Assembly: GCA_905221605.1 (NCBI GenBank)
Contig: CAJNDS010000247.1
Location: 253,138 to 317,137 of the forward strand
From: Symbiodinium natans
Taxonomy: Eukaryota > Sar > Dinophyceae > Suessiales > Symbiodiniaceae
Reading direction: 5' to 3'
DNA: 64,000 nt
Part shown: piece after piece, positions 1,938 to 46,624 of the stretch
Layout: the number at the start of each line of letters is the position of its first letter
Numbering within the stretch: the first letter of the stretch is position 1
The notes under the pieces: generated by a model
Told to the model about the DNA's origin: nothing
Database searches by the model: none
The model's input: only the letters and a program-made list of their open reading frames with translations
Translations under genes and position numbers: made by a program

Positions 1938-2163
1938 CTCCCGCTGACTGTTGGCTTGAACAGTGATCTTTCGCTTGCTCTGGATATGAGGTCCTGTATT
2001 GAAATAACCCCACCAGGGAAAATAGTTTGGTACAGCCCCGTATGGGGATCTACAAATATAGGGGACCCCTAAATAGTAGGATCCTCTTATACTGAGGACC
2101 CCAATGAGGCACCCCTTATTCTCGTAAACCCCCATATGCTGGGGTTCGGAAAAGCTGGCCTTG
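1938..2163 (+). CDS. hypothetical exon interrupted by a family A element
   Basis: The frame LTVGLNSDLSLALDMRSC then EITPPGKIVWYSPV is cut by the inverted-repeat element at 2043-2134. If the element and one TA target copy are removed, the frame continues CWGSEKLALTL into a telomeric tract. The restored junction VWYSPV-CWGSEKL is seamless. No family recognised; splicing out of the element is inferred. Confidence 0.5.
2043..2134. mobile_element. family A TIR element A1 (introner-like)
   Basis: Ends are TGGGGATCTACAAATATAGG and the inverse of TGGGGGTTTACGAGAATAAG. It is flanked by a TA duplication at 2041-2042 and 2135-2136. The interior has the family motif of stacked GGGGACCCC / GTAGGATCCTC blocks. 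No coding capacity, so non-autonomous. Confidence 0.8.
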
Positions 2164-2203
2164 ACCCTAAGCCCTAAACCCTAAACCCTAAACCCTAAAC
2201 CCT
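2164..2203 (-). repeat. interstitial telomeric tract CCCTAAA
   Basis: About five CCCTAAA units, directly upstream of a small exon. Confidence 0.95.
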
Positions 2204-2204
2204 T

Positions 2205-5200
2205 GTCAGTGGCTTCGCAGAGATTCCACGAGGCAGCGGCGCGAGGCGCGGGAAGCGGCGAGGCTGCAGCGTTTGGCACTGAAGGCTCCCGGTGGGGTTT
2301 AGGGTTTAGGGTTTAGGGTTTAGGGGTTAGGGGTTTAGGGTTTAGGGTTTAGGAGGTTGTTCCCAACCGAGTTTGAGGGCCCAAAGGCCTGAGCCACCCT
2401 ATAACCTATAAACCTGACGAACATGATTCGCGTTATGAGCAAGACTACTCTTAGTTCTTACCGTTACATATTCCGAAATATTGCGAGTATTACTAAATTA
2501 GTGTCATGAGCAGTCTACCAGAATGAACCCTAAAACCCTAAAACCCTAAATCCCTCAAACCCTAAAACCCGAAAACCCTGAATCCCTGAATCCCTAAAAC
2601 CCTAAAACCCTGAAACCCTGAAACCCTAAAACCCTAAAACCCTTATTCCTACTGTTATTGTTGTGAGCCTGGCGCACCAGGCTGCGGCTCGCCGTTCCGG
2701 ACCCTCTGCGGAGGAGCTGCGAGCTGCGACCACAGGGGGCCACACGGGGATGGGGCTTTTCGGTTTAGGGTTTAGGGTTTAGGGTTTAGGGTTTCGGGTT
2801 TCGGGTTTAGGGTTTAGGGTTTAGGGTTTGGGTAACTTTGCACTATACTTGGAGGTTCATGGTACTTATGAACCCAAATTATGACTGTACTTATAACCCA
2901 ATCATACCCAATCATAGCCATGTTGTGGCACCGAAGGGGCTTGGGGATTTTGCACCATAGAAGAATACGAGTCATGCACGAGACCTCGATCGCTTCATGC
3001 AGTCAGCGTAGCCCAGCCTAGCAGGCTGTCATAGGCTGTCACTATAGGGCTTGGCAGCTCGTTGCAGGTAGAGAATGTACCGTGACTTCTGTTTACTTCA
3101 TTTGCTGGGGTTGCGCGGTAAGGCACAGAAGATCGCAGAGAAGGCAGCGGCGCGACGGGCCAAGGCCACCCGCAACCTTTTCATTACATGGCTGTCCCAA
3201 AATAGGGGTACCCCTTGTATACGCTAAAATAGAGTAGGACCCCAAAGGGTGCCCCAAAAGGGTACCCCTATTTTCGGAAACCCCCACATCCTAATTACAG
3301 AGTTTTGGGAAGGTTTGGGCATGGATCACAACCTCAATTGTGCGGTCTTTGCAGTAGCGAATTCACCCTACTTGTGAGCTGTCGCGCGTTTGTTTAGCGG
3401 TCACGCTTTTTCAAAAAAGCATCGCTGAAGATCTAAACCCTGATTCCGACTCTGCTCACATGAACTGTACGTATGTCTGCGTGTATATACATATATGTTT
3501 TTGTATGTACTTGCCTGTTGCTTAACATGTTTTATCTACTTCTGTAGTTTTATGTCTACAAGAATGTGGCAGAATTACCTTTTGAATGCATGTGATATCA
3601 TAATATGCATATACATATATATATATATATATACATATATGTATATATATATATATATGTGTGTACACGTTGCTGCCTCACAATCCTGGTGGATGGTCCT
3701 GTGTCCTCGGCTTGCCCTGCTTACAAACGCCTTACAACCTGTCCGAGATGCTCTTGGAGATCACTAAAAGATCATGGCTCCCATCGATGGGTTTGGGGTT
3801 TAGGGTTTAGGGTTTAGGGTTTAGGGTTTAGGGTTTAGGGTTTAGGGGCTCGCCTATTGGGTCACTGGCGACTGGCTTCTCATGGTTAATGCTCCGATGC
3901 GATTACAATCGGAGTTTCGGAGGCCAGAGACGTTCGTGGACTTGGGCAAAATCGTTTCCTTCTGACATTGCAAGTTGCCCAACGCCAAAACAGTCAAAAG
4001 CTCTTCCTTTCGTGTTCTGAGCTGGTCAGCAAGTCTGACATGTCCATGTGGGAAATGATCTCATGTGACATGTATAACCAAGCACACATGAGAAAGTATT
4101 TCTGCGCAAGCCAGTGGTTCAGGCCTTTCCAAGTTCCGAACGTTTGCACAAAGTCACAAAAGCGCAATAGCCGCTTTTTAGCGTGCGCCTCGGTGCAAAC
4201 TACATCGACCTCAGATTGAGATGCTCGTACGCGAGTTCAAAAGCCCAGAGAATACGGTTTTGTTCCTTCCAAAATGCAAGTAGAGCAAGCTACTGTAGAG
4301 TACTGAAAAATGTCGAGCTGATGCACAGTGACTTTTGTTAAGCGCGACGAGGCCAAAGGTGCAAAACCTGAGGAGGCCGACAAGGAAGCATCCTTGCCAG
4401 GCGCCGAGGCGCTGGCATGAGAGCTTCTCACAAAGCCCCACCTTTAGGGTTTAGGGTTTAGGGTTTAGGGTTTAAACCCTAGACACTAAACCCTGAACCA
4501 TAGACCCAAAACCCTAAATCCTAAACCCTTCCTCCTTCTCTGGTATAGGATAGTGAATTCCCACAAGCTCTGAATCCCAAGACCGACATGAATAGAGAGG
4601 TCCAGGTTAAACCGTGGTTCCCAAGTTCCTTCACAGCCTCATGAACAAGCCTTGGCCTGTGCTTGCAGGCGACCGGCGATCCGGAACCTCCCAAATCGGA
4701 GAAGGAACAGAAGGAGCCCTTTGGGAGCAATTGGTAGCGAAGACGTTTTGGTTGGTTTAAGCGCTCCTTCTGCACATAGGCCCTAAACCCTCAACACTAA
4801 AGGGTACGTACAAGTGGAGCTTTCAGCACCTTAAGGCCGGCTGGTCAAGAAGAAGCCGGACTCACCGCCCAAAACGGGTCCACAGCCGCAGCTTTGCAGA
4901 CAATGGTAGCCATATAGGGTATGTGAGCTTGTTCTTGGGTTTAGGGAGAAAGGGTTTAGGGTTTAGGGTTTAGGGTTTAGGGTTTAGGCTAGGTCAAGGC
5001 AATTCAGAGGGCCGTGTCTGATGCTTAGGTTGAAGACAAGGGGAAGAATCATAAAGAGCCGGCAGCTTGCACGCATTGCTGCTTCGCATCTTGCGACAGA
5101 TGGGGGTTTCCGAATAGGGGGGGGGGGGGGATACCCTTCTTTGGGGGTCCCTTTAAGGGGCTTCTATTTTATTTGGGGTACAAAAGGGGTACTTGAAAGC

Positions 5201-5509
5201 CACCCGGCTCTGTCTCGGCAGGTGAACTCCGAGAGCAGGCAGAGCAAGCTGTGCGCTGAGAACTTGGCGCCCGAGAGCGATGCCGACGAGAAAGGGTCGA
5301 AGGAAGTAGAGAAAAAGACGGACAAGAAGGCGAACGGAGATGCAGGAAAGGAGAAGCAGCAGGATCCGAAGGAGAAAGAAAAGGAGGCAGGCAAGGAGGA
5401 GCAGAAGACTGCAGCTTCGCAGGAAAGGTCGCCTAAACGAAAGCGAAAGACCAGAGAGGAGGAGCTCGCGTTGCATATCGCGTTGCATATTGGAAGCACT
5501 TCAACCTGA
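2205..5509 (+). CDS. multi-exon Lys/Glu-rich hypothetical protein
   Basis: At least eleven small coding blocks on one strand: 2213-2290 (RFHEAAARGAGSGEAAAFG), 2677-2745 (AAARRSGPSAEELRAATTG), 3107-3192 (GKAQKIAEKAAARRAKATRN) continuing after element A2 as LITEFWEGLGMDHNLNCAVF, 3672-3790 (YNLSEMLLEITKRSWLPSM), 3848-3945 (AYWVTGDWLLMVNAPMRLQ), 4219-4283 (EMLVREFKSPENTVLFLP), 4339-4422 (VKRDEAKGAKPEEADKEAS), 4672-4733, 4842-4907, 5025-5098 (VEDKGKNHKEPAACTHCC) and 5221-5509. The last block is strongly charged (KKTDKKANGDAGKEKQQ, PKRKRKTREEEL) and ends at TGA 5507-5509. Introns between blocks carry telomeric tracts or family A elements. Whether all blocks belong to one gene is inference. Low-complexity charge suggests a nuclear or nucleic-acid-associated protein, but no family is recognised. 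Confidence 0.45.
2296..2352 (+). repeat. interstitial telomeric tract TTTAGGG
   Basis: About eight TTTAGGG units with two variants, immediately downstream of the exon ending near 2290. Confidence 0.95.
2525..2643 (-). repeat. degenerate telomeric tract CCCTAAAA
   Basis: Mostly 8-bp CCCTAAAA units with CCCTGAAA/CCCTGAAT variants, upstream of the exon at 2677. Confidence 0.9.
2762..2831 (+). repeat. interstitial telomeric tract TTTAGGG
   Basis: About nine TTTAGGG/TTTCGGG units directly after an exon. Confidence 0.95.
3193..3286. mobile_element. family A TIR element A2 (introner-like)
   Basis: Left end TGTCCCAAAATAGGGGTACC mirrors right end GGGTACCCCTATTTTCGG followed by AAACCCCCA. Flanks are GC and CA, so any target duplication has diverged. 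Removal joins NLFIT to LITEFWEGL in frame. Confidence 0.75.
3603..3662. repeat. TA/CATATA microsatellite
   Basis: Alternating TA with CATATA interruptions, about 60 bp, inside an intron. Confidence 0.9.
3790..3848 (+). repeat. interstitial telomeric tract TTTAGGG
   Basis: About eight near-perfect TTTAGGG units between the exons ending near 3790 and starting near 3848. Confidence 0.95.
4443..4529. repeat. inverted telomeric tract, TTTAGGG then CCCTAAA
   Basis: Four TTTAGGG units run straight into CCCTAGA/CCCTAAA variants, forming a head-to-head inverted repeat that could fold into a hairpin. Confidence 0.9.
4936..4988 (+). repeat. interstitial telomeric tract TTTAGGG
   Basis: Five perfect units preceded by one broken unit. 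Confidence 0.95.
5101..5200. mobile_element. degenerate family A element A3
   Basis: Left end TGGGGGTTTCCGAATAGGGG matches the family terminus. The right half is decayed and a G-run interrupts the left half. It lies between two charged exons. Confidence 0.6.
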
Positions 5510-5751
5510 TGACATGAGAACCATGAATCCGTCCCTGTCTTCCCTTGAGATCCGCACAGGACACCGAGGACAAGAAGGAAGGCTAGACCATACTGCAGAA
5601 TGGGGTTTACTATGATACAATATCGTGTGGGACTCTCTTTAATGTGTTCCCCCCCTGAACAGTCGAAGCTGATTTGGGTCCTCTTCAGACGGTCGTTCCC
5701 CAGTATTTTATATGGTTTTTTTTGAAAAGGATGAGTTCATGTGAATTAAAA

Positions 5752-5935
5752 AGGTTGGGTGACCCCCAGCAATTGATCTTCAAGGCGCACCACGCGAAAG
5801 ATTCTTATGACGCTTTGAAGACTTGACTTAAGAGCGGACCCACCCTTGACCCCCAAACTGTCACAGGATCCTGAAGTAGCCCGGCAAAACGCGACTTCAT
5901 AGAGGAAGCCCCTACCAGAGGGGGTCACTCAGCTC
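5752..5935. mobile_element. TIR element, separate family E
   Basis: Left GGTTGGGTGACCCCC and right GGGGGTCACTCAGC are imperfect inverted repeats about 180 bp apart, in a stretch without a gene after the stop at 5509. No transposase is present. Confidence 0.5.
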
Positions 5936-6110
5936 CGAAGGTGGGCTCACCAACCCGAAGCCCTTGAGTATCATTATATACCTCCGTAGAATCAAAATTC
6001 ATCATGATGGTTCGAATTAACATTGCCTAAGGAAAGAAAGCCACACACATCATTCGTATGCCTGAACCCTCAAACACTCTCTTGAAGATGCTGACTTGCT
6101 CCTTGCAGCA

Positions 6111-6162
6111 CCCTAAACCCTAAACCCTATAAGCCCTAAACCCTAAACCCTAAACCCTAAAC
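6111..6162 (-). repeat. interstitial telomeric tract CCCTAAA
   Basis: About seven units with one AT insertion, just before an exon. Confidence 0.95.
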
Positions 6163-6167
6163 GCAGC

Positions 6168-7673
6168 AGGCAGAAGATCCCGAGACAGGCGGCGGCGAGC
6201 CGAGGAGCCGAGACCGCTTTGAGGGTGGAAAGGCGTGCAGGTTTAAGGTCTATAGGGGTTCAGGGTTTGGGGTTTGGGGGCTTCAAGGGTTAGGGGTTTA
6301 GGGTTTAGGGGGTTCAGGGTTTAGGGGTTCAGGGTTTGGGGGTTCAGGGTTTGCGGCTTCAGGGTTTGGGGTTCAGGGTCTCGGGGTTCCGGGGTGATGT
6401 GTGGACATGCATCAGATGCTCAAAGACATGCGACGCTGCAGGATCACAATGGCAGACGGCCCAGCGTCCGAAGAGGACTCTGCTTCGCAAAGGGTTGAGA
6501 GTGTCAGAGAGAATTGCTGGGAGCTTGGGCTGAAACTCCTTCAAGGACATGGGCGCCATAGGAGAAGACACGACAGCAGGGAAGGCGGCGAAAGGAAGGC
6601 CGGTAAATACAGAAACATCACATCCCTTCTTGCTCTGAGTCTGGTTGCTCCAGGGTGCCAGAGACAAGAAGAGCCGGAAGGATGCCAGCAGGTCACAGCA
6701 CAGCCGATGAGATCATGTGCTGCTTTGTGTGTGCTTTCTCAGCTCGACCCGGTAGACAAAAATGGGTTCTGGCAATGCAACGCTGTAGTTAGGGGCCCGG
6801 TGCGCCGGGAAGCTCTGAGGGCTTCTATTTTGAGGCAAGCCATGTAGCATGCCTCATACCATTTCGACAGGTCGCGGTCTGCAAAAAGACCTGCCAGACG
6901 GGCCGCGGACTTTGTGTCGCATAGGGTCAGAAATCGGTGTGGAGTTTGGACTGCCCTGGCATGTCTTGGAAATGAGACTTTCCCGAGATTTATCGGCTGA
7001 GGCCAACGCCATCTCTCCACCAAAGCCTGCCAAAGCTCGTCCAGCAGTTGGAGCACGAGTTCGGGTTTTGACCGAAAACGAGGACAAAGAAGGCCTCTAC
7101 TACGACGACGATCGAGTTGCTGGGCAAGCAAGAGCATGATATTATAGCATGATGCCGAACTAAAATGCAGGCTCTTGTTGATCTTGTTGGCACTGTGATG
7201 CACTGATATCTGAAAATCAGGTTGGCATGAAGGGTATGACCGGACGAATTATCGAAGACGATACTTCCGAGCAGCCTTTTCGAGTAAAGCTCCGAAACGG
7301 GAAGCTCTCCTGGTTCAAGGAAGCCTGGATAGAGGACGCGAGTTGGGGTTCAAGGTCTTACAGATGGGAATGTAGGAGTGCCCAATTCCCACCATGAAGA
7401 GACTGAGAGGGCCCAATGAGGGTGTGCTTCCTCGCCCTTCTCTCTTCACGCAAATCAAGGAGCTCGACGGTGGGCCTGCCTCCCAAGTTGCGCGTGTTCG
7501 CACATGGGACATGGGGTCGACCTCTTAATGCCCAGAGGGTCTATATTTCAAAGCGAAACGCCTAGGTCATCCTCTTCGAGCTCATCGTCGTCTTCTTCAG
7601 ACTCTTCCGGCGAGTCGGCCCAGGACGTGCTTGGCCCGCAAGGAGTGAAGAAGCGGCAGGCGAAACATCGCTG
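6168..7673 (+). CDS. multi-exon protein with an SH3-like barrel and Ser-rich tail
   Basis: Coding blocks: 6168-6240 (AEDPETGGGEPRSRDRFEGG), 6407-6545 (MADGPASEEDSASQRVESV), 6548-6600 (DMGAIGEDTTAGKAAKG), 6653-6696 (GARDKKSRKDAS), about 6990-7090 (AVGARVRVLTENEDKE), 7213-7345 (GMTGRIIEDDTSEQPFRVK then NGKLSWFKEAWIEDA), 7424-7522 (PSLFTQIKELDGGPASQVAR) and 7563-7673, a Ser run then DSSGESAQDVLGPQGVKKRQ and TGA at 7671-7673. The VGARVRVL ... GMTGRII ... FRV-L-NGK-SWF pattern resembles the small beta-barrel (KOW/MIB-like) repeats frequent in dinoflagellate proteins; that assignment is from memory of the pattern. The intron after DKE may use a GA-AG pair. Confidence 0.5.
6256..6390 (+). repeat. 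degenerate telomere-like tract (TTTAGGG/TTCAGGG)
   Basis: Twelve or so GGGTTT/GGGTTC variants, following the exon ending near 6240. Confidence 0.85.
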
Positions 7674-7800
7674 ACCGTCCCATGAGCTCATGGTGGCTAC
7701 CCGGATTTGTGCCGAGGCATCTGGCAATGGACAGAGTCCAGGTGAGGAGGCAGCGATCAGAATCGAGCGCTTGAGCTCCTGGAACACGTTCCAGAGCATG

Positions 7801-7838
7801 GGTTTAGGGTTTAGGGTTTAGAGTTTAGGGTTTGGGGT
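7801..7838 (+). repeat. interstitial telomeric tract TTTAGGG
   Basis: Five units, two with substitutions. Confidence 0.9.
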
Positions 7839-7882
7839 ATCATGATACTGCCGACATCTGCCGATGCCCTTCCTGCCCAGGC

Positions 7883-10746: not shown

Positions 10747-11035
10747 TCATTGGGAGGTCTGGCTCGAACCCTAAGTGCAGCATGGGGATTTCCGATTTTC
10801 CGGGTACCTTTTTGCGGTCCTCACTTATAAGTTATAAGGGGATCCTACTATTTTGGTGGTGTATATTAGAGGCCCCTTATTTTGGTCAACCCCCACATGG
10901 ACTGCAGGAGCTACAAAGGATGAGTGCCATTGCCAATGGAAACCGGGCTGCGCGCTCAAGTCTATTGGGGTCAATGTAGGCAACCAGCCAAAAGAGGCAG
11001 AGCTGGTAGCTTGGTGGCTGAAGTGAGGGACGGCT
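10747..11035 (+). CDS. hypothetical terminal exon split by a family A element
   Basis: Frame SLGGLARTLSA is cut by the element at 10783-10895. With the element and one CA copy removed it continues AWTAGATKDECHCQWKPGCA and ends GNQPKEAELVAWWLK, TGA at 11033-11035. The combined frame is cleanly protein-like. No family recognised. Confidence 0.5.
10783..10895. mobile_element. family A TIR element A4 (introner-like)
   Basis: TGGGGATTTCCGATTTTCCG at the left against the inverse of TGGGGGTTGACCAAAATAAG at the right. Exact CA duplication at 10781-10782 and 10896-10897. Confidence 0.85.
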
Positions 11036-24005: not shown

Positions 24006-24845
24006 GCCCTGGTGGTTGCGCAAACTTCCAGTCAAGCCTCCTCTCAGAGTACACCCACAACTGGGAGTGCAAAATTCGACTTCGATGCTTCGCTTTGACT
24101 ACTGCGCGAAACACGCTACGCAGAAGTTCAGGAAATTCCACCAGGCAGGATCAAGGCGGAGAAGCATAATTTATTGTGAAGAAGCACCCGAAAATCCTGG
24201 CTCCGGCCAGCGAAAGACACAAAGACACTGAGAGCCTGGACCGACTGTTTCAAACATCGTTTGTGCTGACAGTGAAAATGTTAAGCCCGCAAATTTACCC
24301 TACCATTGTAAGTTTTAAGTATGCCATTTTTTAATCTCCATCGAGATGTTAACCCTTCAAACCCTTGTCTACTCGACGTGGACGACCGATTTGGCAGCAG
24401 ATGCCGCTTGCATGCATTGAAGGTCGCAGCTGAAGGTCGCATCTTTGCAAAGAGCTGAGCAAAGTAGGTGAGGGTCCAACATCTCAGGCAAAGCTCTGGT
24501 GCTCCGAGCATGGGCGTCCCGCTGTTGGAGCACTCAGGCGGGATCGTCCAGCTGGGCGTTTTCCCAAATTAGGGGGTACCTTCTTGGGCCCTTTTTGTCG
24601 GCGTCGGTGTCAGTGTCGGTGTCTGTGGAGCTGAACAAGCTGAGGGTTCCAGCATCTTGCGTGTACCTGCTGTGTTGTCGAAGTTTACACGTGAACCTGC
24701 TACCAGTAACCCTCAGCAGAAAGAGTTCAGAGAGAAGACTTCGATCCCTGAAGCGGGTCTCACTGACAAGTTGATTTTTTGGCAGGGCGGTACTTCAAAC
24801 CGCATTGACCTATGGTTCTTAGTACTATTCATCATCATGAAAGGT
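24006..24845 (+). CDS. hypothetical exons
   Basis: Blocks: 24006-24173 (CPGGCANFQSSLLSEYTHNW then KIRLRCFALTTARNTLRR, TAA), 24190-24272 (KILAPASERHKDTESLDRLF), 24352-24459 (CLLDVDDRFGSRCRLHALKV, TGA), 24483-24552 (SSGAPSMGVPLLEHSGGIVQ, broken by a family A fragment at 24553) and 24627-24845 (LSKFTREPATSNPQQKEFRE then IPEAGLTDKLIFWQGGT, TAG). No family recognised. Confidence 0.4.
24553..24602. mobile_element. family A fragment A5
   Basis: Left terminus TGGGCGTTTTCCCAAATTAG plus the internal GGTACCTTCTTGGG motif; the right end is missing. It abuts a coding frame ending GGIVQ. Confidence 0.6.
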
Positions 24846-31746: not shown

Positions 31747-33246
31747 GTAGTTCGAGCGGCAAAAATCACGGCCTGGAAATCGGAAAAACACGGAAATGTG
31801 AATGGCGAGTTGTGGGAGACCTCGGTGGCCAGACTGCAATCAATGCTGCAAGCATGCATGGTTGTGGATGTAGTGGACCTCAACCAGCGGATTTCAGCCT
31901 GCGGTCGAAGTCAAATGTGGAGAGGTGCTCTGCACATCCTGGAAACGCTTCAGCCAATGCTTAGAGCAAGCCTTATCAGCTTCAATGCAGCACTACGTGC
32001 CTTCTCCAGCATGCACTGGTGCGAGGCTCTCTGCCTGCACCGCAGAATGCTTCAGCTGTCAGTGAAAGAGGACATTATCACGGCAAACAGTTCCGGACAA
32101 GCACTGGATGACTGGCAAATTGCTTGCAATCTGATGGAGGCCACATGCAGATCAACAGTCAGAGTCAGTCAGACGAGCTTTGGAGTGCTCCTCAATAGTC
32201 AAAAAGCTGGCCAAGCGTGGGAGCGTGCAGTTGGGACATTCAGCAGCATGAACAGAGTTGCGCTGCAAAGCAACGAGATTATATGCAGCTCGGCGGTCCA
32301 TGCAAGCAGTGTGGTTTGGGAGACTGCCCTGGCCGTGATGAATGCCTTGACCGCCAGCACCCAGCCCAACATTGTATGTTTCAGTTCACTAAGTAGCACA
32401 CTGGACAGGAAAGGTACATGGAAGAAAGCGCTTTCACTAGTTCATGCAGCAATGGCACGGAATGTCAAACTGAACAAGTTTCTTCACAACACCGCCTGCA
32501 GCTCGTGCTCAAAGGTGGCACGATGGGAAAATGCTGTCCAGGTGCAGGAAGACATGGCATCACGCCAATTAAAAATGGATGTCGTAGGCTCCACCTCTAT
32601 CATCAGCTCAATGGATGCACCATGCTGGAGATCAATTCTGGCATTGCTCGGCAGAATGTGCAACTCTGGCATCCAACTAAACAACTTCGTGTTTAATGCA
32701 GCTGGCGATGGCCTTGTCAAGAGCACCCAATGGAACATGGCATCGTGGCTCTTGCATGCTATGTATACTCGTCGCATGGAGATGGATGTGTTCACACACA
32801 GCCTGGCATGGACCGGCTATCGCCGATCGGGCGGGCAGACCATAGACTTCCTATCGCAGTTTCTGCAAAGCAGCTTGAAGCCGAACAAGGTCCTCCTGTC
32901 GAACGCGATCACTCTGCACAAAGAACGCTGCCAGTGGGCACCAGCACTGGCAATCTTTAGCTACATGAGCATCATCAACACGCAGCCTGATCTCATAAGT
33001 CACAGCGACGTCATTGGTGCCTGTTGCTCACCCCGTTGGCAAGTTGGCTTCCACTTGTGGTTCCGGATGTGCACGCTGCGAGTGGAGACGGACGTGGCTT
33101 GCATTGCACAAATTTTGGATGCTGCTGCTGAGCAGCAAGCCACCTGTGTGCCAGAGCTTGCTGAAAGGCTCGACGCTTGCGCAACCTCGCTATATGCTGC
33201 TTCCCAGCATCTCCAGACAAAGCATGTGCCACCGGCGAGGGAATAG
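31747..33246 (+). CDS. pentatricopeptide repeat (PPR)-like protein
   Basis: A single exon of about 500 codons. Degenerate helix-turn-helix units recur roughly every 35 residues: LNQRISACGRSQMWRGALHI, SFNAALRAFSSMHWCEALCL, NTACSSCSKVARWENAVQVQ, FNAAGDGLVKSTQWNMASW, LSNAITLHKERCQWAPALA and SHSDVIGACCSPRWQVGFHL. The alternation of an N/S-x-x-I/A-x-x-C opening helix with a W-x-x-A-L second helix is the PPR pattern, and PPR proteins bind organellar RNA. The frame opens at 31747; the first in-frame candidate start at 31798 is GTG, so the true start is probably in an upstream exon. Stop TAG at 33244-33246. An intron-free body of this size is unusual beside its fragmented neighbours. Confidence 0.75.
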   Translation, partial: VVRAAKITAWKSEKHGNVNGELWETSVARLQSMLQACMVVDVVDLNQRISACGRSQMWRGALHILETLQPMLRASLISFNAALRAFSSMHWCEALCLHRRMLQLSVKEDIITANSSGQALDDWQIACNLMEATCRSTVRVSQTSFGVLLNSQKAGQAWERAVGTFSSMNRVALQSNEIICSSAVHASSVVWETALAVMNALTASTQPNIVCFSSLSSTLDRKGTWKKALSLVHAAMARNVKLNKFLHNTACSSCSKVARWENAVQVQEDMASRQLKMDVVGSTSIISSMDAPCWRSILALLGRMCNSGIQLNNFVFNAAGDGLVKSTQWNMASWLLHAMYTRRMEMDVFTHSLAWTGYRRSGGQTIDFLSQFLQSSLKPNKVLLSNAITLHKERCQWAPALAIFSYMSIINTQPDLISHSDVIGACCSPRWQVGFHLWFRMCTLRVETDVACIAQILDAAAEQQATCVPELAERLDACATSLYAASQHLQTKHVPPARE

Positions 33247-34293: not shown

Positions 34294-34560
34294 CAGATGG
34301 ACGGCCTGAAGATAGTCAAGCTGACCCCGAACCTTTTTTGCTTGCAGGGGTGTTTGTGTGTCTGTCGGCCTGTAATTATGAGGACTCACGTCGGTGAGTG
34401 TGCAAGTAAACATTGGTGAATCATGAAGAGTGGGACGGCCGAAGATCGTGGGCACAGGCTGCGGTGTTGCTATGTGTTGCTACTTGGGGTGGAATAACCC
34501 AAATCTCAACTTCACATGTACTTCGGAAGCATGCTTTATGCTTTTGTGCTGTGGCTGCAG

Positions 34561-34575
34561 CATTTTGGCTCCAAC
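34561..34575 (+). other. spliced-leader relic-like sequence
   Basis: CATTTTGGCTC matches 11 consecutive bases of the dinoflagellate spliced leader (whose 3' end is CCATTTTGGCTCAAG), followed by CAA. It lies 27 bp upstream of the chosen ATG of the next gene, where a trans-spliced leader would sit if the gene were reinserted from mRNA. Confidence 0.45.
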
Positions 34576-34601
34576 CTGAGGCTAGAAGTCCCAGCCGCAC
34601 C

Positions 34602-36014
34602 ATGCGCGTTGTGATGCCACACATGTGGTGTCGCGCCACCGGCGCCGTCGTGGGGCTTCTTTGGTTCAGCACCCTTTCTGCCGGTTCCCGATGCGAGTTT
34701 AAGCAGATCGAGTCTTCAAGCCTGGAGCCTGGGTTTGAGCAGGGCATGACTCACCCCTTGCTCATTCAAACAGCTGGAAGTGGAAGGACAGCCGAGATGA
34801 TTGATGGCCTGGGCAACATAACGCTCTATATAACGACTGCCATCGGGAATCAAGCACAGCACGGCTTCACTCAAGACGAGCAGATAGCTGCAAGCGAGTA
34901 CATTCAGCGCCTCGAGACGAACAAGTCCATCCCCTACGCTTTTCGGCAGTGCCATCTCAGTCCAAGTTGCGATCGAGCCTTGGCTAAGGCGGTTGGCATC
35001 CCTTCGTTTCTTCGTGAAACGGCGCGCGAGCTCTTTATGGCCGTCGGCAGCTTTCCGGGATCATTTCCATTGCATAGCCACGATCGGACATGGGCGCTGT
35101 CATTGGCTGGAAGCAAAAGGTGGTTCACCTCACCACCTGGCAAGCCCCCACTGCGGCCCTATGTCGATCATGACGAAGACTCACTAAAACGAGCTGGGTT
35201 CCAGTACTGCGTGCAACATGAGGGCGAGGTCGTCTTTCTGCCACGAGGCTGGTGGCACGCAGTGATCGTTCAGAGTAATTGGAGCTTAACGGTTGGCGGA
35301 CAGGGAGCGTCCAAAGACTTGGTGTTTAGCGCGTGTCGGGGCGACCTGGCAGCTTTTACAAGCAGCCGACCGCATCAGCTGAACCGGCTCGACCCGAGCG
35401 GGATCAGCCCAGCAGGACATGCGGCCAGAGCCGGTCACGCCAAACTGCTTGCGACTTTTCGCGAAAAAGGTGCAGACTTGCAATCGCCAGATGGGAATGG
35501 GTGGACTCTGGCACACCATGCCGCAAAGCTCGGCCATGTTGAGGTGATACAGTGGTTGGCTGAGGGCGGAATCAGCGTGACTGAAAGGAACAGGATGTCT
35601 TGGACTGCCCTGCATACTGCAGCAAAAGCTGGAAACGTGGAAGTAATTCGGGCTCTTCTTCAAGCTCGAGCCATGGTGGAGCCCAAGGATCAGGCTCATG
35701 ACTTCCCAAATGTCATGCTGTATAGTATGCAGCATGCACATAGGTTAGTCAGATATACGGTACGCGCACAGACACGGAATGTCCAATGCAGAGAAGTTAG
35801 TTGACGTGATCTTGACCAGGACGGCAGGACCCCTGTCCACATTGCCGAAGCCCACGGGCATACTACTGCGACGCAAGCCTTACATGCCGCACGTCCTGGA
35901 GGAGGAATAGGAGGCTTGTGGCACATCATTGCCGCTTTGGGCTTGGTTGTGGCCAGCATGTTTTGGGGATCTTCTGTTTGGCGACAAGAGAAAAGCGTGC
36001 GAGATCTGCAGTAA
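34602..36014 (+). CDS. JmjC/cupin-like and ankyrin-repeat membrane protein
   Basis: Two exons, 34602-35687 and 35820-36014, 426 codons plus TAA. ATG 34602 is preferred because a relic-like leader lies just upstream and a hydrophobic segment (GAVVGLLWFSTLSAG) follows. The cupin_8/JmjC-type core shows LHSHDRTWALSLAGSKRWF (about residues 157-175) and EVVFLPRGWWHAVIVQ with the distal His at 219; the usual H-x-D is replaced by H-S-H (158/160), so metal-dependent hydroxylase activity is uncertain. Four ankyrin repeats follow, e.g. NGWTLAHHAAKLGHVEVIQW, WTALHTAAKAGNVEVIRALL and DGRTPVHIAEAHGH. A C-terminal membrane helix (HIIAALGLVVASMFWGS) precedes a basic tail. The exon join PK/DGRTPV is phase 0 across a GA-AG intron; without it the repeat frame breaks. 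It may hydroxylate or bind ankyrin-type partners at a membrane (inference). Confidence 0.8.
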
Positions 36015-39139: not shown

Positions 39140-39606
39140 TCACTCGGTTGGGGCTGCAAGGACTCCCAGGAGTGCAAGCAGCGATCGAAAGGCTGCAAGG
39201 CCACAAGCTTATGGGGTGTTTACGAAAATAGGCGTACCTTCTTGGGTTTAGGGTTTAGGGTTTAGGGTTTAGGGTTCCTTCTTGGGGTCCTGATTATAAG
39301 GGAATCCTAGCTAGTAAAAGGGGTCTATGTTCGGGGTCCCCCTACTGTCGCAAATCCCCTTATCGAGTTTTCAGGTAGATCGCTTGGGTTTGAGCCCTCA
39401 CATGAAAACTCATGAAGCGTTTTTTGCCGACTCTTGCCTCTTGCACCTCCAGCGCAGAAATCTGTACACGCTTGGGAAGGCAGGAGTTGTAGACCGAGCA
39501 CGACCCGCATCGTGCGATCGGCAACCCATCGCGAAGACCGCGAGGCCTCGAGACAGCCTGCCAATGAGCGTAGCAACATGTGGCAACTGTTTTTGGAAAG
39601 GCCCTA
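39140..39606 (+). CDS. hypothetical exon interrupted by element A6
   Basis: Frame LQGLPGVQAAIERLQGHK ends at the element (39212-39360). Removing the element and one TA copy continues LIEFSGRSLGFEPSHENS to TGA. A further block at 39498-39606 reads IVRSATHREDREASRQPANE then MWQLFLERP. No family recognised. Confidence 0.4.
39212..39360. mobile_element. family A TIR element A6 carrying a telomeric insertion
   Basis: Left TGGGGTGTTTACGAAAATAG against the inverse of AGGGGATTTGCGACAGTAGG, with TA on both flanks (39210-39211, 39361-39362). Inside, 30 bp of TTTAGGG units (39247-39276) split the family motif ACCTTCTTGGGG and are bracketed by direct copies of CCTTCTTGGG. Confidence 0.8.
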
Positions 39607-39730: not shown

Positions 39731-40105
39731 CGCTTGCAGGTACCAGTCATGACACGCGCCATTGCATGTCACTTGCCACTTGTGGAGGACGGCCCCAGCC
39801 GAAGCCGGGGGCCTTCAAGCCGCCGAGCTGCCCGGGTTGTCGGCCGACCTCTGCATCGTACCAAGTTGTTTCTGAGCACGTGGGTAGTTCTCGAAATTGG
39901 GGGCCTTGGGGGGTCCCTTTCTTTGGGGTTCCCGGTGGAGTAAGGTACCCTTGAACGTGGACCCAAAACGGGACCCCAATTTTGAGAACTGCCCGCATGG
40001 AGCTATCTGGAGCCTCAGTGAGCAGAATCTTCCAAACAGAGAAGCATCTCAACAACCCTAAACCCTAAACCCTAAACCCTACTGTAAACCCTAAACCCTA
40101 AACCC
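39731..40105 (+). CDS. hypothetical exon interrupted by element A7
   Basis: Reading KPPSCPGCRPTSASYQVVSE then H reaches the element at 39881. After removal the frame continues MELSGASVSRIFQTEKHLN into a telomeric tract. An alternative upstream frame from a GCAG acceptor at 39739 reads VPVMTRAIACHLPLVEDG, so the 5' part is ambiguous. Confidence 0.4.
39881..39995. mobile_element. family A TIR element A7 (introner-like)
   Basis: TGGGTAGTTCTCGAAATTGG mirrored by the inverse of CGGGCAGTTCTCAAAATTGG, 20 bp with three mismatches. Flanks CG and CA, a duplication with one change. Confidence 0.8.
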
Positions 40106-40109
40106 TAAG
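40055..40109 (-). repeat. interstitial telomeric tract CCCTAAA
   Basis: Seven units interrupted once by ACTGT, placed shortly before an exon starting at about 40117. Confidence 0.95.
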
Positions 40110-40116
40110 TCTGTAG

Positions 40117-40525
40117 CGAATCTCGACGCTGAGGGATACATACGGCCGCCGCTGTCCAGCAGACCTGAGCTTCCAAGCCGGCTACTCCAGCATGCCACAC
40201 GGCTGCATGTGGGGGCTTTCCGAAATTAGGCGGGGAGGGGGGAGGGGGGGGGTACCTTCTTGGGGTTCTATTGGAATGGAATCCTACTATTTGGGGTCTA
40301 TATTTTGGGTCCCTTGTTTTCTATCTTTTGGGTCCCTTAAAGTTCGTAAGCTCCCATGTCGTCCTTGTCCGCAAGAACACGTTTTGCCCAGTGCTTGGGT
40401 CGTTGCCTGCGGATCTACACGAATGGATACAAATGGGCATTCACATACTTAACGGTGCATCGACGACAGTCCATGGGTGTAGGCAAAGCAAGCATGCGTG
40501 CGGCCTCAGAAAAAATGTTGCCTAA
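40117..40525 (+). CDS. hypothetical exon interrupted by element A8
   Basis: Frame NLDAEGYIRPPLSSRPELPS then RLLQHATRLH stops at the element (40210-40356). Removal with one TG copy gives ...TRLH-VVLVRKNTFCPVLGS, LPADLHEWIQMGIHILNGAS, ending at TAA 40523-40525. The junction codon is restored exactly. No family recognised, but both sides are strongly protein-like. Confidence 0.55.
40210..40356. mobile_element. family A TIR element A8 (introner-like)
   Basis: Left TGGGGGCTTTCCGAAATTAG, right the inverse of TGGGAGCTTACGAA. TG duplicated at 40208-40209 and 40357-40358. It carries a G-rich insertion and the GTACCTTCTTGGGGTTC core. Confidence 0.85.
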
Positions 40526-40673
40526 CGAGTCCGTTTTGTCATGTGCCCAATGTAGATCAGCGCCATTCAAGGCCCAACAGAAGCAGAAGTGCAGCCTAGG
40601 TACATATCCGCATCAAGGCATCCGAGGAGTCTGTTGCTCAGGTCTGTTTCTGTGTAGTTGAACAGCTCTGCTC

Positions 40674-41034
40674 ATGTTGAGCCAGCCCTGGCTGTGTGGC
40701 ACCTGCACTCCATGCGCACACGCGCATGCTGAGGTGCAGTACCCACGCCGCCTCGTCGTGCAGCAGCGCGCGCTCGGAAGGGTTCATGGAGGCGCTGGGC
40801 GTGCGTATGCCTGCGTGGCCTTGGAAGATCGCCGGAATGGATGGGAATTGCACATTTTTGCACGTTCTCTCACCTTCACCCCTCAAGCTCTCAGGGAAGA
40901 ATGCCCAGACAGCCAGTTCACAGAATGGTTACACGCGCTGCCGGGACCAGGAACCCCAAGTCTTCCAGAGCCCTTCAGGTTCAGGGCACGAACCAATTAT
41001 CAGGGCACTTAAGGGGCTTATAAGCATCTCATAA
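40674..41034 (+). CDS. hypothetical exon, frame ambiguous
   Basis: Two overlapping frames are open: one reads SEGFMEALGVRMPAWPWKIA, the other QQRALGRVHGGAGRAYACVA then NGWELHIFARSLTFTPQALR. One is presumably real; the sequence alone does not decide. Confidence 0.3.
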
Positions 41035-41137
41035 GTACAGTTCTACTTGGTTCAGAAGTACCATGAACCTCCAAGTAGAGGTACCATGAACCTCCAGGTA
41101 GAGCACCGAAGGACCCGCTAGGCCAGCAGAAGGCGCC

Positions 41138-42059
41138 ATGGGAGAGGCGGCAGATGGAAATGAAGCCGCGGATGGGCCTGCTCTGGATGGCCACCTGACA
41201 TCTTACGCACTTTGCTGCTGTATTCCTTACAAGGGCAATATGGGGATCATTATTGTGATTATGAGATAGATATATATATACACATATTTGTTTATATTTT
41301 GTTATTTAGTTATTGAATTGTTGGGGGGTTTTAAGGAATTAGTAGTTCGGGGTTTAGAGTTTGCACCGGGGTGGGGGGGGGGGGGGGCTTATAGGGTTCT
41401 AAGTTGTTTAGGGGTGTTGCAGTCCAAGGCTACATGCAGCAGCACCAGATCCAGCCATTCGTGCAGGACTGCCTGTACGCCTGAAGTTAGATAATGAATT
41501 CCCTTCTCCCGCCTGCTGTTTTGCCGGATATGGGTATGCTCGCCATCCAGGGCTTGTGACGAGTTGACGGGTTGAATTCCTGGTTTGACGGTTTGTTTCA
41601 ACTGCGAGTCTTGGCTAGATGATCCATCATCTTCACGATCGTCCCTATCTCTTAGTACCCTACATACACAGGCTCCGTATTACAATAAAAGCCCTAGAAC
41701 AATCATAACTATGGAGATGCATTTGCCACGCGAACAATGTAGCCGAACTTGAAAGTAGCTGGACCCGGGATCGTTCTGTCTGCATGGAAGTGCGCGACAT
41801 CCATTTCGTTGGGATTAGTTGTGGATATGGGGGTTTGCGAAAATAAGGGACCCCTCATATAGTTTTCCAGATAGTCCCTTACAGTAAGGACCCCAGGAAG
41901 GTACCCCCGAATGCCGGAAACCCCCATATCCAAGAACAGAGCACCTTCCGTCCTCTCCAGTCCTTAGGTCAACTCCCCCCAGCTGCCTCCAGGAGATGTT
42001 AACAGAGCTGTTTGCTGCTCTACCAGAAGATCCTTACGAGTACATGCCCGGACCCCATG
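41138..42059 (+). CDS. DPY-30/RIIa-type dimerisation domain protein
   Basis: Start ATG 41138 in a good context (GCGCCATGG), reading MGEAADGNEAADGPALDGHL. After an intron with a TATA microsatellite and a G-run, exon 41423-41478 reads VQGYMQQHQIQPFVQDCLY. It joins in phase 0, via a GC-AG intron (41479-41992), to exon 41993-42059, EMLTELFAALPEDPYEYMPG. Y(L/M)..H.I..(F/L)V.D.L..ML..L....PEDPYEYM is the short helix-loop-helix of the DPY-30/PKA-RII dimerisation family, used as a docking domain in cilia and chromatin complexes. The intron contains family A element A9. Downstream exons may extend the protein (see 42278 onward). Confidence 0.65.
41371..41387. repeat. poly-G run
   Basis: GGGGTGG then about 14 G, close to the acceptor at 41422. 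Confidence 0.9.
41828..41926. mobile_element. family A TIR element A9
   Basis: TGGGGGTTTGCGAAAATAAG against the inverse of TGGGGGTTTCCGGCATTCGG. TA duplicated at 41826-41827 and 41927-41928, the cleanest copy in the window. Lies within the intron of the DPY-30-like gene. Confidence 0.9.
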
Positions 42060-42277
42060 GTCAACTGGAAGGGCTGTGATGTCCTGGCCGGTGTACATAT
42101 GTAAATAATACCCATTGCATTGCTACCCATTGCTACCGAGGACGTACCACTTAGCCTCCCGTCGCCCGGTTCGACCACCGCAGGCGGTCCTGAGTAGTCA
42201 GCGGACACATCGGTAGACGCAACGGCGATGCCTCAACCAGCCTGCTTCAGATGCCATCAGTATGAGGTGAACTAAAC

Positions 42278-43543
42278 ATGCAGCATCACTCGGAAGGACC
42301 AAAAGCTCATCAGCAGTGGGGTTTTGTGGGCTCTGCTCCCTGGAGGGGACCCAATGCATCGAGCTCAGACGGTAGTGGACGGTTTTTCCAGCAAGTAGCG
42401 TATCCAAGGCAGCATTTCTGTAGCTTGACATGCAAAGGTCGCCGGAGCAGTGGCGATTACGGCGCTGCTGGCTGACTGAGAAAGGTAGCAAGCCTAGATG
42501 GTTGGCATGCGAGAGGGCCTGAGACACGTACCTCTGACATGTGCAGCTTCTTAGGCATCTTGTGTGTCAGTAACTCCGCCGCGGATGTCGTTCGCGATGA
42601 TGCTGGTGGTACCTTGGCTATGTTGGCTCCCGGACAAGTTCCGCAGAGCTGAATGACCTGGTTTGCTCTTGTGAGCACAAAGGCGTGGTAGTTTCACCAC
42701 CTGAAGATCCTGCACCTCAGGAGCAGAGAGAGTTCAGGGTTTAGGGCTTAGGGTTTAGGGTTTAGGGGTTCAGGTATGAAGCTGCAAGACACCTCAAGCC
42801 TGGAGCATGTGAAGGAGTATCCGCTCGAGAAGGGAGCCACCCACAGGCCACTTTTCAAATGCCATCACAACAACACTTGCAGCACATGCCAGTATGGTCT
42901 GCCATAAAGCAACCGAAGCTTAGCCCTGCAGGGAACTGGATGAAGCGGAGGCCGCCCGGCCCTTCGCCTTCCAAGTGGCAGTGAAACCCGGCCCTTTGGC
43001 CCACCGAGCCGACAAGGAGCAGATGGTCAGCTTTGGGCCTTGTCCATGGAAAGAACCTGTGCTTTTCGGTCTGACGGTTTGAGGCGATCTGGGCACTTCC
43101 CAAAAATGTGGGGCACGCCTTTTGTACCCCAAATACTATAATCCTCATTCAAAAAGGGCACCTGCTTCTGTCGGAAACCCCCATGTCGTGTGTTGAGGAG
43201 CTGGATGGTGGCCGCTGGGTCCTCCAACTGGCAGCCAGCTCCGAGGCCGCTTCAGTGCTGTGCATGTTCTGTGCTCCTTAGGGTTTAGGGTTTAGGGTTT
43301 AGGGTTTAGGGTTTAGGGTTCAGGGTAACTAGGTACCTGTGGAACACTGTGATCTTCGGGGAGCCTTCACACATTCCAACGCACCAGGATCAGCGAAACG
43401 AGTGGTTCAGCTTGTTTGCGCCCTTCTCGCAAGCGGCGGCGCTGCATCTTAGCTGCATGTCAGAGGATTGCTGCCAGTTCCGGAGTGAATCATGGAGTGA
43501 ATCTGCACAGCCTGCACAGGCCCTCTATGGCCCCACCATCTGA
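42278..43543 (+). CDS. multi-exon hypothetical protein
   Basis: Blocks: 42278-42475 (KAHQQWGFVGSAPWRGPNAS), 42568-42651 (NSAADVVRDDAGGTLAMLAP), 42774-42907 (MKLQDTSSLEHVKEYPLEKG then PLFKCHHNNTCSTCQYGLP), 42929-43076 (ELDEAEAARPFAFQVAVKPG, ADKEQMVSFGPCPWKEPVLF, GLT), 43198-43258 (ELDGGRWVLQLAASSEAASV) and 43337-43543 (YLWNTVIFGEPSHIPTHQDQ then EWFSLFAPFSQAAALHLSCM). The 43076/43198 join is phase 0 GT-AG, with element A10 filling the intron. Exons are strongly protein-like but no family is recognised. The block could continue the DPY-30-like gene. Confidence 0.5.
42735..42770 (+). repeat. interstitial telomeric tract TTTAGGG
   Basis: Four to five units ending at the TTCAG acceptor of the 42774 exon. 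Confidence 0.9.
43090..43183. mobile_element. family A TIR element A10
   Basis: Left TGGGCACTTCCCAAAAATGT, right the inverse of TGGGGGTTTCCGACAGAAGC. Flanks TC and TG. It occupies nearly all of a 121-bp GT-AG intron (43077-43197). Confidence 0.8.
43278..43325 (+). repeat. interstitial telomeric tract TTTAGGG
   Basis: Six units, last TTCAGGG, forming most of a short intron between 43258 and 43337. Confidence 0.95.
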
Positions 43544-43933
43544 GCTGCCGCCCGTGAACGAGGAGTAGGCCAGTAGGCAGTGCGTTCAGCATGGCGGCTT
43601 TAGGCAAAATGGCTGCTGGTGCGCAAAACGCGCGGCAAAGCAGTCCTGAGTCAAGAATTTTCTTGCTTCTCACCAATGTAGCTTAGCCGGACTCTGCCAT
43701 GTAGGACGACGTGCCCAAAGGATGCTACAGGAATCTACGAAGACAAAAACATCGTGGCGGCCATCCTTCGGGCAGAGGTATCCCTGAATTTGAAAGCATG
43801 ACTTGGCGGAGCACGCTGAGCGTGTCGCTCTTGGGCATTGGCCTCTCCTAGCCTCTTCCTAGGCTACGGAAAGCTTTGGTGAGTTTGGTACCGTGGGTCG
43901 CCAAGCAGATTCTCTGACCGCCCATGTGGAAAC

Positions 43934-44110
43934 GTGCTTGCTTCGAATGGTCTGAGCAACGTCGTGCTCGGAATTGTTGGTGACGGATCGTGTCAGCTGC
44001 CGTGGCTGGGAGGCCTTGATCCGGCAGTCCTCTGCCGACGGCGAAGAGCTTGGGGGGTTTTTGGGATGTTATCAGATGCCACAGGATTATCAACGACCCA
44101 ACAGTGTCAT
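43934..44110 (+). CDS. hypothetical exon
   Basis: Frame LASNGLSNVVLGIVGDGSCQ, LPWLGGLDPAVLCRRRRAWG and VFGMLSDATGLSTTQQ. No family recognised; downstream frame stops at about 44161. Confidence 0.35.
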
Positions 44111-44245
44111 TTAATAAGGCAGTCGAGTCACCTCCGCGCAGTCGTCGCCAAGACGATGTAACAGCTTGGAGGCCTCAACCCTGGCAGCTCGCAGCATTGA
44201 TTCGCTCGTGATCTGAGTGCCTGGGTAGCTGCAACTACTACTCAG

Positions 44246-44380
44246 AGCCCAAGACCCCTGAATTCAGGAACAGAATATGAATACTCTGAATATAAAATAT
44301 ACCTTAAAGTACGCAGGGATCCTTCATAATCTGATTTAAGGTATATTCCTTAGTTCAGGGGGATTGGGCTCTTTGGGTAG
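44246..44380. mobile_element. family B TIR element B2
   Basis: CAGAGCCCAAGACCCCTGAA mirrored by the inverse of CCCAAAGAGCCCAATCCCCC. The internal ATATACCTTAAAG / TTTAAGGTATATTCCTTAG arms match B1. Confidence 0.7.
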
Positions 44381-44699
44381 TTGCTTGGAGGTGCGAGCAA
44401 AGGACTGCGTTTGGGCCTATCGGGGAGTGCGACGACAGATCGCCAGCTGCTTAGTTTGGACCTGCAGGCACTGCCTCGGTGCCACGTAAAGATTCAGGGT
44501 AGGCAGCCGGGTCAACTACATTGAAGCACTGTGCAGCTAGATCATCAAAGCAGCAAAGCTGGCATCTTCCCCCTTCAAGGAGGCGCCACACTTGCACTTC
44601 GGGCATGTGCCGCGCACTACGCTCGGCTCCCTGCATGGATCTAGCCAAAGCACGCGAAGTTTTCGCGACTGAGCTTCGTCACACCTCCTCACCCTGCAG

Positions 44700-44907
44700 T
44701 TCAGAAGCAACACCAGCAGGCCAATGAGAATGTTGTGCAAGGTTTGCGACAGGAGGCGCTGCTAAGATGGTAGTGCCCTCTTCGCGAATCTGGGCAGCTG
44801 AAGCCGACGTGCCAGGAAACACTTCGCGCGTCAGTGGAAGCTCTGTACCCTTTAAAGCTCCGTCGCAGATGGAAAAAGAGCTGGGAGAAGTGAAATCAAA
44901 TAAATAG
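44700..44907 (+). CDS. hypothetical exons, coiled-coil then acidic/Ser-rich
   Basis: 44700-44775 reads QKQHQQANENVVQGLRQEAL (coiled-coil-like). 44767-44907 reads MVVPSSRIWAAEADVPGNTS ... FKAPSQMEKELGEVKSNK, TAG 44905-44907. A GTAGTG donor inside the overlap could separate them. No family recognised. Confidence 0.4.
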
Positions 44908-45251
44908 CAAAATAGCAAAGAATAGCTAACAACTCATAAATCTATATGACGAATCAATAGTATTGTTCAGAGGATGCACAGTCGCTCTCGTGGCTTTGCA
45001 GAAGCCTGCTGCTCGGTATGCTCGCCGCCAGGCTCTATCAGGCTGCACATGTGTTTCATGTCCGGACGCTTGTTTAAACAGACTTCACCATTTCGTGAAG
45101 GGGGGCAACTCTTAGATCTCTTAAGCAGGCAGCAGCAAGATATGTTCGGACGCTAGGTATGACATAACCATGCCTCATTTCACAACCTCCGAGAATGAGA
45201 CTTTCCTGCGAAATCCGCAATGAGGAGACTTCCCTCCCCTTCGCAGGCAAC

Positions 45252-46624
45252 ATGCCTGAGCGAAGCAAAGCTTTTGCGGAAGCTGCAGAATCGAATTTCT
45301 GCGAGATCACGAGATTTGACGCCGCTCGCAGATTCCACGTATTCCAAGACAGGTACGCTTAGCCAGTGCTCTCTGAGTTCACGGAACTCATTTTCAGCCA
45401 AATCGTCGCGACTTACATCCGTGCGATGCGCTGTTCCTCCGATCGGCGTCAGTGCGGCATTTCTGGTGTCATGTCTCGTCGACGTCGGTCCTATGGCTTC
45501 GGAGACTGCACAAACAACAAGAAATGTAGCTGCGGCGCTGAGGCTCAAGCGCGAGGAGTGCCGAGACTCGGCGCGCAGCGCAGCGGAGCTGGCAGAGCGG
45601 CAGGAGGTGCATCCGCTGACGTGTGGCGAGGTGGCGGGGCCGTGCTCCACGCATGTCGCGCACGCCTGGGATGCGAGCTTTCCAGAGCTTGTAGACTGCT
45701 TGGTGCGAGATGCGGGCTCGGATCTGGACCGGCGGTACAGCATCGACCTCTTTGGAGCCGAGCATCTGTCTGGACATCTGGAAGTGGTGCCTGAAAGTGC
45801 CCCGGCGCGAAGCTCTCAGGGGTCCCAAGCATGCAAGGGGGAGGATCCGGTTGCAGCGGTGCAAGCTCTCGTGCACGGCGCCAAAGAAGTGCTGCTGGTG
45901 CTGGACAAAGAGCTGGCTTGCTTCTCACGGCTTTGGGTTTTGACCGAAGCCATGATGGCCACAGCTGCTAACAAGCTTCGAATCTGCACATCTGACCCAC
46001 GGGGCTACGGCAGCTCTATGGACGACATTCTAAGATGGGAGAGTCGTATTGATGCCATCGACTGGTCCTTGGCTGAGGTCAGCCGTAAGAGCGATGACCG
46101 GCGGCTCCGGTCCTTCAGCGAACGTGTCTGGGATGTGCACGGCATCGGAAACGAAAGGCTTCTGGCACAGCTCAAGGTGGGCATTTCCCAAAACAGGGGT
46201 ACCCCTTATCCCTTATACCCCAAATAGAATTGGATTCCCTTAAGGGACCCACAAAAAGCTCTTCGGAAGCCCCCAGGTGCAGCTGAGGAAGGAGGTGAAC
46301 GGCCAGGTGCTCATCAAGGACACGAGAGTTTCAAAAAAGTTGAGCCGAAGTGATCTGCGGCAACCGCAACGAATTTCAGACACTGCACGCGCCACAGCGT
46401 CCTACGATTAAGCTCCTTCCCAGTAGGCTCCACATTTACCCTAAACCCGAAACCCTAAACCCTAGAGGCCCCTGGGCCCCTCAACCCTACGGCTGCAGGC
46501 GGTGGAGGCTGGTGATTGGAAGGCCATTGACGCTGCACTGGACAGAGGCTGCGGGACATGCAACCCAACTGAGCTGAAATTTCGGGAGTTCATAGGATGG
46601 CTTGGGGCTTCGGGGATGGTGTAG
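45252..46624 (+). CDS. dinoflagellate 'VLVLD'-type domain protein, four exons
   Basis: Phase-consistent model: 45252-45352 (MPERSKAFAEAAESNFCEIT ... RRFHVFQD), GT-AG intron 45353-45452, 45453-46176, intron 46177-46276, 46277-46327, intron 46328-46498, 46499-46624 (TAG); 333 codons. Core: THVAHAWDASFPELVDCLVR, RRYSIDLFGAEHLSGHLEVV, AKEVLLVLDKELACFSRLWV and RIDAIDWSLAEVSRKSDDRR. The order 'H.W...F..LV..L', 'VLVLD.....SR.WVL.E' and 'ID..DW..AE.S..DDR' recurs in many dinoflagellate and diatom proteins of unknown role. The tail AVEAGDWKAIDAALDRGC looks like a partial ankyrin-type repeat. Intron 2 is a family A element; intron 3 contains CCCTAAA units. Function unknown. Confidence 0.65.
46178..46275. 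mobile_element. family A TIR element A11, acting as an intron
   Basis: TGGGCATTTCCCAAAACAGG against the inverse of TGGGGGCTTCCGAAGAGCTT. GG duplicated at 46176-46177 and 46276-46277. The GG target plus the terminal T and A create AAG|GT...AG|GTG, a canonical 100-bp intron whose removal leaves LAQLK-VQLRKEV. Confidence 0.9.
46437..46465 (-). repeat. interstitial telomeric tract CCCTAAA
   Basis: Three to four units, ending about 35 bp before the CTGCAG acceptor of the last exon. Confidence 0.9.

Follow-up and report, generated by a model that had tools for sequence, protein, structure and literature searches.

A MITE-like TIR element family of Symbiodinium natans with a four-base target duplication and predicted canonical introns at exonic AGGT sites

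Introduction

The introners of Symbiodinium microadriaticum that carry TIRs and target duplications are described, in the parts of Gozashti et al. (2022, PMC9860276) drawn on here, as having 4-bp duplications, inverted termini and a splice site derived from the target, and most of the introner families covered there leave the mRNA length unchanged. The family of small elements analysed here in Symbiodinium natans resembles them in its 4-bp target duplication, its TIRs and the recruitment of a splice site from the duplicated target. However, as outlined in those parts of PMC9860276, the 3′ splice site of the S. microadriaticum introners is carried by the element, whereas in the present family GT and AG both lie in an AGGT target; the two were set side by side by description and not by sequence. 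The introner elements of Amoebophrya, according to the portions of Farhat et al. (2021, PMC7789003) that deal with them, have non-canonical junctions supported by RNA. The present family shares with the elements portrayed there the inverted repeats, the short direct repeats and a TE-like spread, and differs from them in that its clear exonic copies are predicted to have GT-AG ends, while its non-AGGT copies appear to have no coding-like excess.

Additionally, counts of introner elements based on repeat motifs are available for Suessiales genomes (PMC10522408, PMC11114475) and from a comparison of dinoflagellates with S. natans in its tables (PMC10666404). As summarised in the sections of these three papers considered here, such introners have inverted and direct repeats at the intron ends, as the present family does; the counts concern motif patterns in annotated introns, and the same sections make no mention of the present family, its target or a restriction to AGGT. 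In a literature search by titles and abstract openings, no paper naming the family was found.

MITEs are short, non-coding elements with inverted termini, a target duplication of fixed length and a high copy number, and the present family is like them in each of these respects. As a MITE/introner family it belongs to a kind already known in Symbiodinium, and it is filed here as a member of that kind whose insertion anatomy is well resolved. We consider it very probable that its members are non-autonomous, MITE-like TIR transposons with a 4-bp, mostly ANNT target that, through selection, form canonical introns when they lie in a sense exonic AGGT. The family would thus provide a clean example of a loose 4-bp target from which canonical introns arise at proto-splice sites alone. 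Away from exons it would behave as an ordinary MITE and at exonic AGGT as an introner, so that the effects of insertion preference and of selection for splicing could be told apart.

The Element Family in the Window and in the Genome

The DNA analysed, referred to as the window, is a stretch of 64,000 nucleotides of S. natans contig CAJNDS010000247.1 with a GC content of about 52%. Small TIR elements of about 90–150 bp, with G-rich and C-rich inverted ends and a conserved core, are dispersed in it, and a profile search recovered 10 family copies at 22 bits or more, the weakest being E3 and E9, besides weak relatives at three places and one fragment. Exact 4-bp duplications flank five of these copies: E2 (3190–3285, minus strand, ACAT, nhmmer 47 bits), one end of which is degenerate; E5 (39213–39359, plus strand, TTAT); E7 (40211–40355, plus strand, ATGT); E8 (41829–41925, minus strand, ATAT, 71 bits), which was also found by the ATAT pattern; and E10 (46179–46274, minus strand, AGGT, 26.8 bits), which lies in a coding exon. 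Agreement at three of four positions, with a perfect match one base over, was observed for E1 (2044–2133, minus strand, 66.7 bits; GTAT/ATAT, then TATG/TATG), E4 (10784–10894, plus strand, 58 bits; GCAT/ACAT, then CATG/CATG) and E11 (53477–53624, minus strand, 66.7 bits; AAAT/AAAC, then CAAA/CAAA). E9 (43091–43182, minus strand, 23.6 bits) is an older copy with the flanks ATCT/ATGT (3/4), and E3 (5102–5191, plus strand, 22.4 bits) is degraded, with only its left end clear and 0/4 flanking bases in agreement. The weak relatives E6 (39883–39991, 17.8 bits) and E12 (54352–54432, 10.8 bits) are inverted repeats with related but distinct termini; the profile search also placed a further weak relative at about 56112–56221 and the family fragment at 24560–24592.

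A Pfam search of the joined flanks of ten window copies, E12 among them, found no domain across a junction. The sole match from those flanks was to phytochelatin synthase (PF05023; E = 3.1e-09 once the frame is joined), in an exon on the plus strand downstream of position 54432; E12 lies upstream of this exon, and the match does not cross the junction. As a separate observation, telomere-type TTTAGGG/CCCTAAA arrays lie inside several copies and lengthen them (E5, from 39244, and L028, L135, L137, L145, L155, L158 and L165), and other family copies adjoin such arrays.

The genome-wide search for the termini that the original prediction had proposed was run on the 759-Mb assembly (2,543 contigs). 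As in introner families, repeats of shared sequence were found at many genomic sites: a 27-base end with up to three mismatches gave 1,436 matches against 0 for its control, and a degenerate exact 22-mer of the terminus gave 3,453 against 5 for the reversed control, the family termini being GGGGGTTT. The prediction of a TIR family with a conserved core was borne out by these matches and by those of the profile search in the window. Where it had counted at least thirteen elements of 80–150 bp, the profile gave 10 copies in the window, besides the weak relatives and the fragment. In the same assembly, the dinoflagellate spliced-leader 21-mer had 205 exact matches (control 0); for S. natans CCMP2548, the pertinent passages of PMC8045281 report 244 putative leader sequences, spread over 211 scaffolds, and describe IsoSeq data for the species.

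Element Ends and Target Duplication

For the delimitation of the elements, a target-agnostic sample of 90 copies was chosen from the best 100 of the 1,436 matches to the 27-base end, without regard to their flanks, and right ends were called by inverted-repeat similarity alone, without reference to the duplication, which left 79 copies with clear right ends. In these 79 copies from the best 100 of 1,436, the agreement between flank letters was maximal at the 4-bp register (156 of 316 letters), the other offsets tried reaching at most 106, and therefore the element itself runs GGGGG...CCCCC, with a target 4 bp in length. The inverted termini are accompanied, as in MITEs, by a target duplication of this fixed length, which was exact in 20 of the 79 copies (sample from the best 100 of 1,436) and had the ANNT form in 19 of these 20; ATTT was the commonest exact target, with six copies, followed by ATGT, ATAT and ACAT with three each. 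Fewer than two of the four letters agreed in 36 of the 79 copies from the same best 100 of 1,436, as expected for old or mis-delimited copies.

A 2-bp target and TGGGGG...CCCCCA ends had been proposed for these elements. The 2-bp reading was dropped, since the peak at the 4-bp register ruled against it: it corresponds to the middle of a mis-delimited 4-bp target, mostly ANNT, and the outer T and A come from the target, not from the element. With the ends set in this way, an insertion into AGGT reads AG/GT-GGGGG...CCCCC-AG/GT, that is, a GT-AG intron, because the donor GT and the acceptor AG are both supplied by the duplicated AGGT. Judging from the letters, AGGT is the sole ANNT target that gives GT-AG at the element boundary.

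According to the mechanism that we propose, non-autonomous TIR DNA transposons of MITE-like type would insert with duplication of 4 bp, mostly ANNT, the transposition being presumably mediated by a TIR transposase, and most copies would end up away from coding exons. An element inserted into a sense-strand exonic AGGT would become a canonical GT-AG spliceosomal intron and leave the mRNA unchanged; E10 and the copy in a cytochrome P450 exon described below are probably spliced in this manner.

Frame Restoration and Coding-Like Junctions

It had been claimed that seven of at least thirteen elements interrupt protein-like frames and that deleting each with one target copy restores the frame exactly. 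Of 180-base stretches taken at random from the window, about 53–55% had an open frame in one or more of the six reading frames, so that seven of thirteen is about the chance level. Moreover, the restored frame is a circular argument, because the excision of any insertion together with one target copy always returns the pre-insertion sequence; it holds by construction, and a frame restored after such a deletion should not be taken as evidence of splicing.

Joined junctions were scored by codon usage, with kinesin exons as the training set (23 stretches, 5,099 codons) and with the coding threshold set so that 2.5% of sites chosen at random in the window would pass. Flanks of 90, 60, 45 and 30 bases were used, at which the sensitivity of the score, measured on the training kinesin exons themselves, was 0.77, 0.46, 0.34 and 0.27, respectively. 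A terminus-score filter kept 87 of the 90 target-agnostic copies, which were scored on either strand; this sample, drawn from the best 100 of the 1,436 matches, is biased to well-preserved, probably young copies. A second set consisted of 40 of the 71 places with GG to the left of an exact end, of which 90-base flanks kept 16 AGGT-flanked copies and 23 others, with one dropped. The sampled loci include six of the genome's 12 clean AGGT copies.

Among the target-agnostic copies from the best 100 of 1,436, coding-like junctions numbered 0 of 87 with 90-base flanks and 1 of 87 with 60, 45 or 30 bases, which is no oftener than chance. For the AGGT copies in the sense orientation, the corresponding values were 2/16, 2/16, 1/16 and 1/17 (p = 0.023, 0.06, 0.29 and 0.30 against the target-agnostic copies of the best 100 of 1,436), 14 of the 16 having no coding-like sense junction. 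When the window copies were added, the comparison at 90 bases became 0/96 versus 3/17 (p = 0.003; the agnostic part again from the best 100 of 1,436), with p = 0.024, 0.059 and 0.065 at 60, 45 and 30 bases. The AGGT contrast is clear at 90-base flanks and weak at shorter ones, in an AGGT sample that is small. The copies that pass at 90 bases are L149 and L157, plus E10 from the window, and these three appear to be coding-exon copies whose edges provide usable splice sites. A third AGGT pass, L145, was considered (3/16, p = 0.003, when either strand was allowed) and left out of the count because its pass is antisense. L137 (AGGT/AGGC) scored best on the wrong strand, and the other copies with GG to the left gave 0/23 passes at 90 bases and 1/23 at shorter flanks.

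In the window, E10 was the sole one of the 10 copies to pass at all four flank lengths, which further weakens the claim that the elements as a group interrupt protein-like frames. Among non-AGGT copies, single passes were recorded for E9 (60 bases only, score 4.9 against a threshold of 4.5), for L028 (target ACAT, antisense, 60 bases) and for L122 (flank AGGA, 30 and 45 bases); the other eight non-AGGT window copies did not pass at any flank length. These results bear on whether most copies could be removed, as in Amoebophrya, by hairpin-assisted splicing whatever their terminal dinucleotides. Such a reading would fit the inverted ends and short duplications, which recall the Amoebophrya introners as presented in the relevant parts of PMC7789003, the GC and GA donors that dinoflagellates use besides GT according to a portion of PMC11453091, and the coding-like score of E9 at one of four flank lengths. 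It is nevertheless highly unlikely, given that the target-agnostic copies (best 100 of 1,436) pass at rates of 0/87 or 1/87, at or below the 2.5% of the null, and that eight of the nine non-AGGT window copies never pass. Many exonic copies with non-GT-AG ends, the Amoebophrya pattern, were not seen among these 87 copies or in the window, where E9 is the one such candidate in nine.

A narrower version, in which certain non-AGGT copies, located in short exons or in genes of lower conservation, are excised non-canonically with the help of a hairpin, E9 being the window candidate, is only slightly easier to credit and still very unlikely; if it were true, one family would yield both canonical and non-canonical introns according to landing site. 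We prefer the reading of canonical introns at AGGT, for which no unusual splicing is needed, since the clear coding-exon copies sit on AGGT and could be removed as ordinary introns. Of the original prediction of an introner-like family, the TIRs, the target duplications and the placement of some copies as introners therefore stand, whereas non-canonical ends as the rule for most copies do not.

Copies in Coding Exons

The AGGT target of E10 occupies positions 46175–46178 and 46275–46278, and E10 is alone among the window copies in having AGGT on both sides. The predicted GT-AG intron extends from 46177 to 46276 (100 nt, plus strand). Upstream of it, the host exon is an open frame on the plus strand at 45199–46176, listed stop to stop as 45199–46227, the part beyond 46176 running into the predicted intron; with the flanks joined, the plus-strand stop-to-stop frame amounts to 370 aa, and the sense junction is coding-like with a score of 10.3 at 90 bases. 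No Pfam match was obtained for the host gene, and a search of its protein against its own genome found no paralogue, returning just the two exon pieces of the gene itself.

The second case, L157 on contig C1762, is an AGGT copy that splits a cytochrome P450 exon. Its joined flanks encode 102 residues, and PF00067 matches residues 2–101 in a single stretch across the junction (E = 1.5e-22); P450 chains from solved structures also align across it. A P450 paralogue at C231:114142-114441 aligns over these 100 residues with 63% identity; its stretch measures exactly 300 bases and contains no insertion. One homologous P450 site is therefore found with and without the predicted intron, in a comparison with one paralogue that does not polarise gain and loss. 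L149 has a joined open frame of 105 aa with a good coding score; for it, no Pfam family scored above the cut-off and a protein search of its own genome gave no paralogue. Another clean AGGT-flanked copy (G000:C1762:12519-12635, minus strand) shares the strand of the P450 copy at a distance of about 4 kb and may belong to the same gene.

The possibility of a plain MITE family with no intron role, whose exonic AGGT copies are recent disruptive insertions, has to be weighed against these cases. It would agree with the position of most sampled copies outside coding-like sequence and with the 14 AGGT copies that lack a coding-like sense junction. However, E10 has diverged from the profile of the family (26.8 bits, as against 66–71 for the best copies) and yet its host frame is open on both sides, the P450 domain is otherwise intact around the inserted copy, and it is on AGGT that the coding-like sense junctions cluster, despite the rarity of GG targets, so that we regard this explanation as unlikely.

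Target Use: Preference or Selection

GG stands before 71 of the 3,453 exact ends (2.1%), compared with 6.8% of the T's in the window, which is a deficit of about threefold (p = 8e-38). Clean copies of the AGGT-AGGT form number 12 in the genome, while the ATAT-ATAT form gives 244 strand matches, some copies being counted on both strands; in the window, AGGT/ACCT sites (456) are more numerous than ATAT sites (308). Owing to this GG deficit and to the large excess of ATAT over AGGT among clean copies, it can be said that the transposon rarely uses GG-centred targets. The clear coding junctions are nonetheless on AGGT (L149, L157 and E10). That the association stems from a transposase favouring exonic AGGT, and not from selection, would account for the fact that the exonic copies found are all on AGGT, but is extremely unlikely in view of the under-representation of GG targets and of the prevalence of ATAT among clean copies despite the larger number of AGGT/ACCT sites. 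Selection for splicing would instead be the cause of the AGGT bias of exonic copies, which would be concentrated on this target because an insertion there leaves the mRNA unchanged.

Kinesin Loci and Other Observations

A kinesin-domain search, made as a source of conserved exons, gave 30 loci (110 kb, some overlapping), in which two family copies were found, a strong one in L066 (66.5 bits, not within the domain match) and a weak one in L040 (19.5 bits). The exons were used as the coding training set instead. In the kinesin-domain gene of L044 (C1882), a different hairpin element at 2446–2553, GGATCCTATATCCCCCC...GGGGAGTATAGGATCC, breaks up the kinesin motor domain; a GATCC...TATAG reading would make it a GA-AG intron, GA being among the donor types reported for dinoflagellates in the pertinent part of PMC11453091. 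A similar hairpin-like stretch lies at 1812–1905 of L066, inside the reported kinesin-domain match. Several kinesin motor domains (L039–L041, L052 and L053) are contained in one uninterrupted open frame, as expected for retrocopied genes. Long open frames also occur in the window at 34410–35804 and 31747–33246, both on the plus strand; from their appearance, we take one of them to have ankyrin-like repeats and one to resemble pentatricopeptide-repeat proteins.
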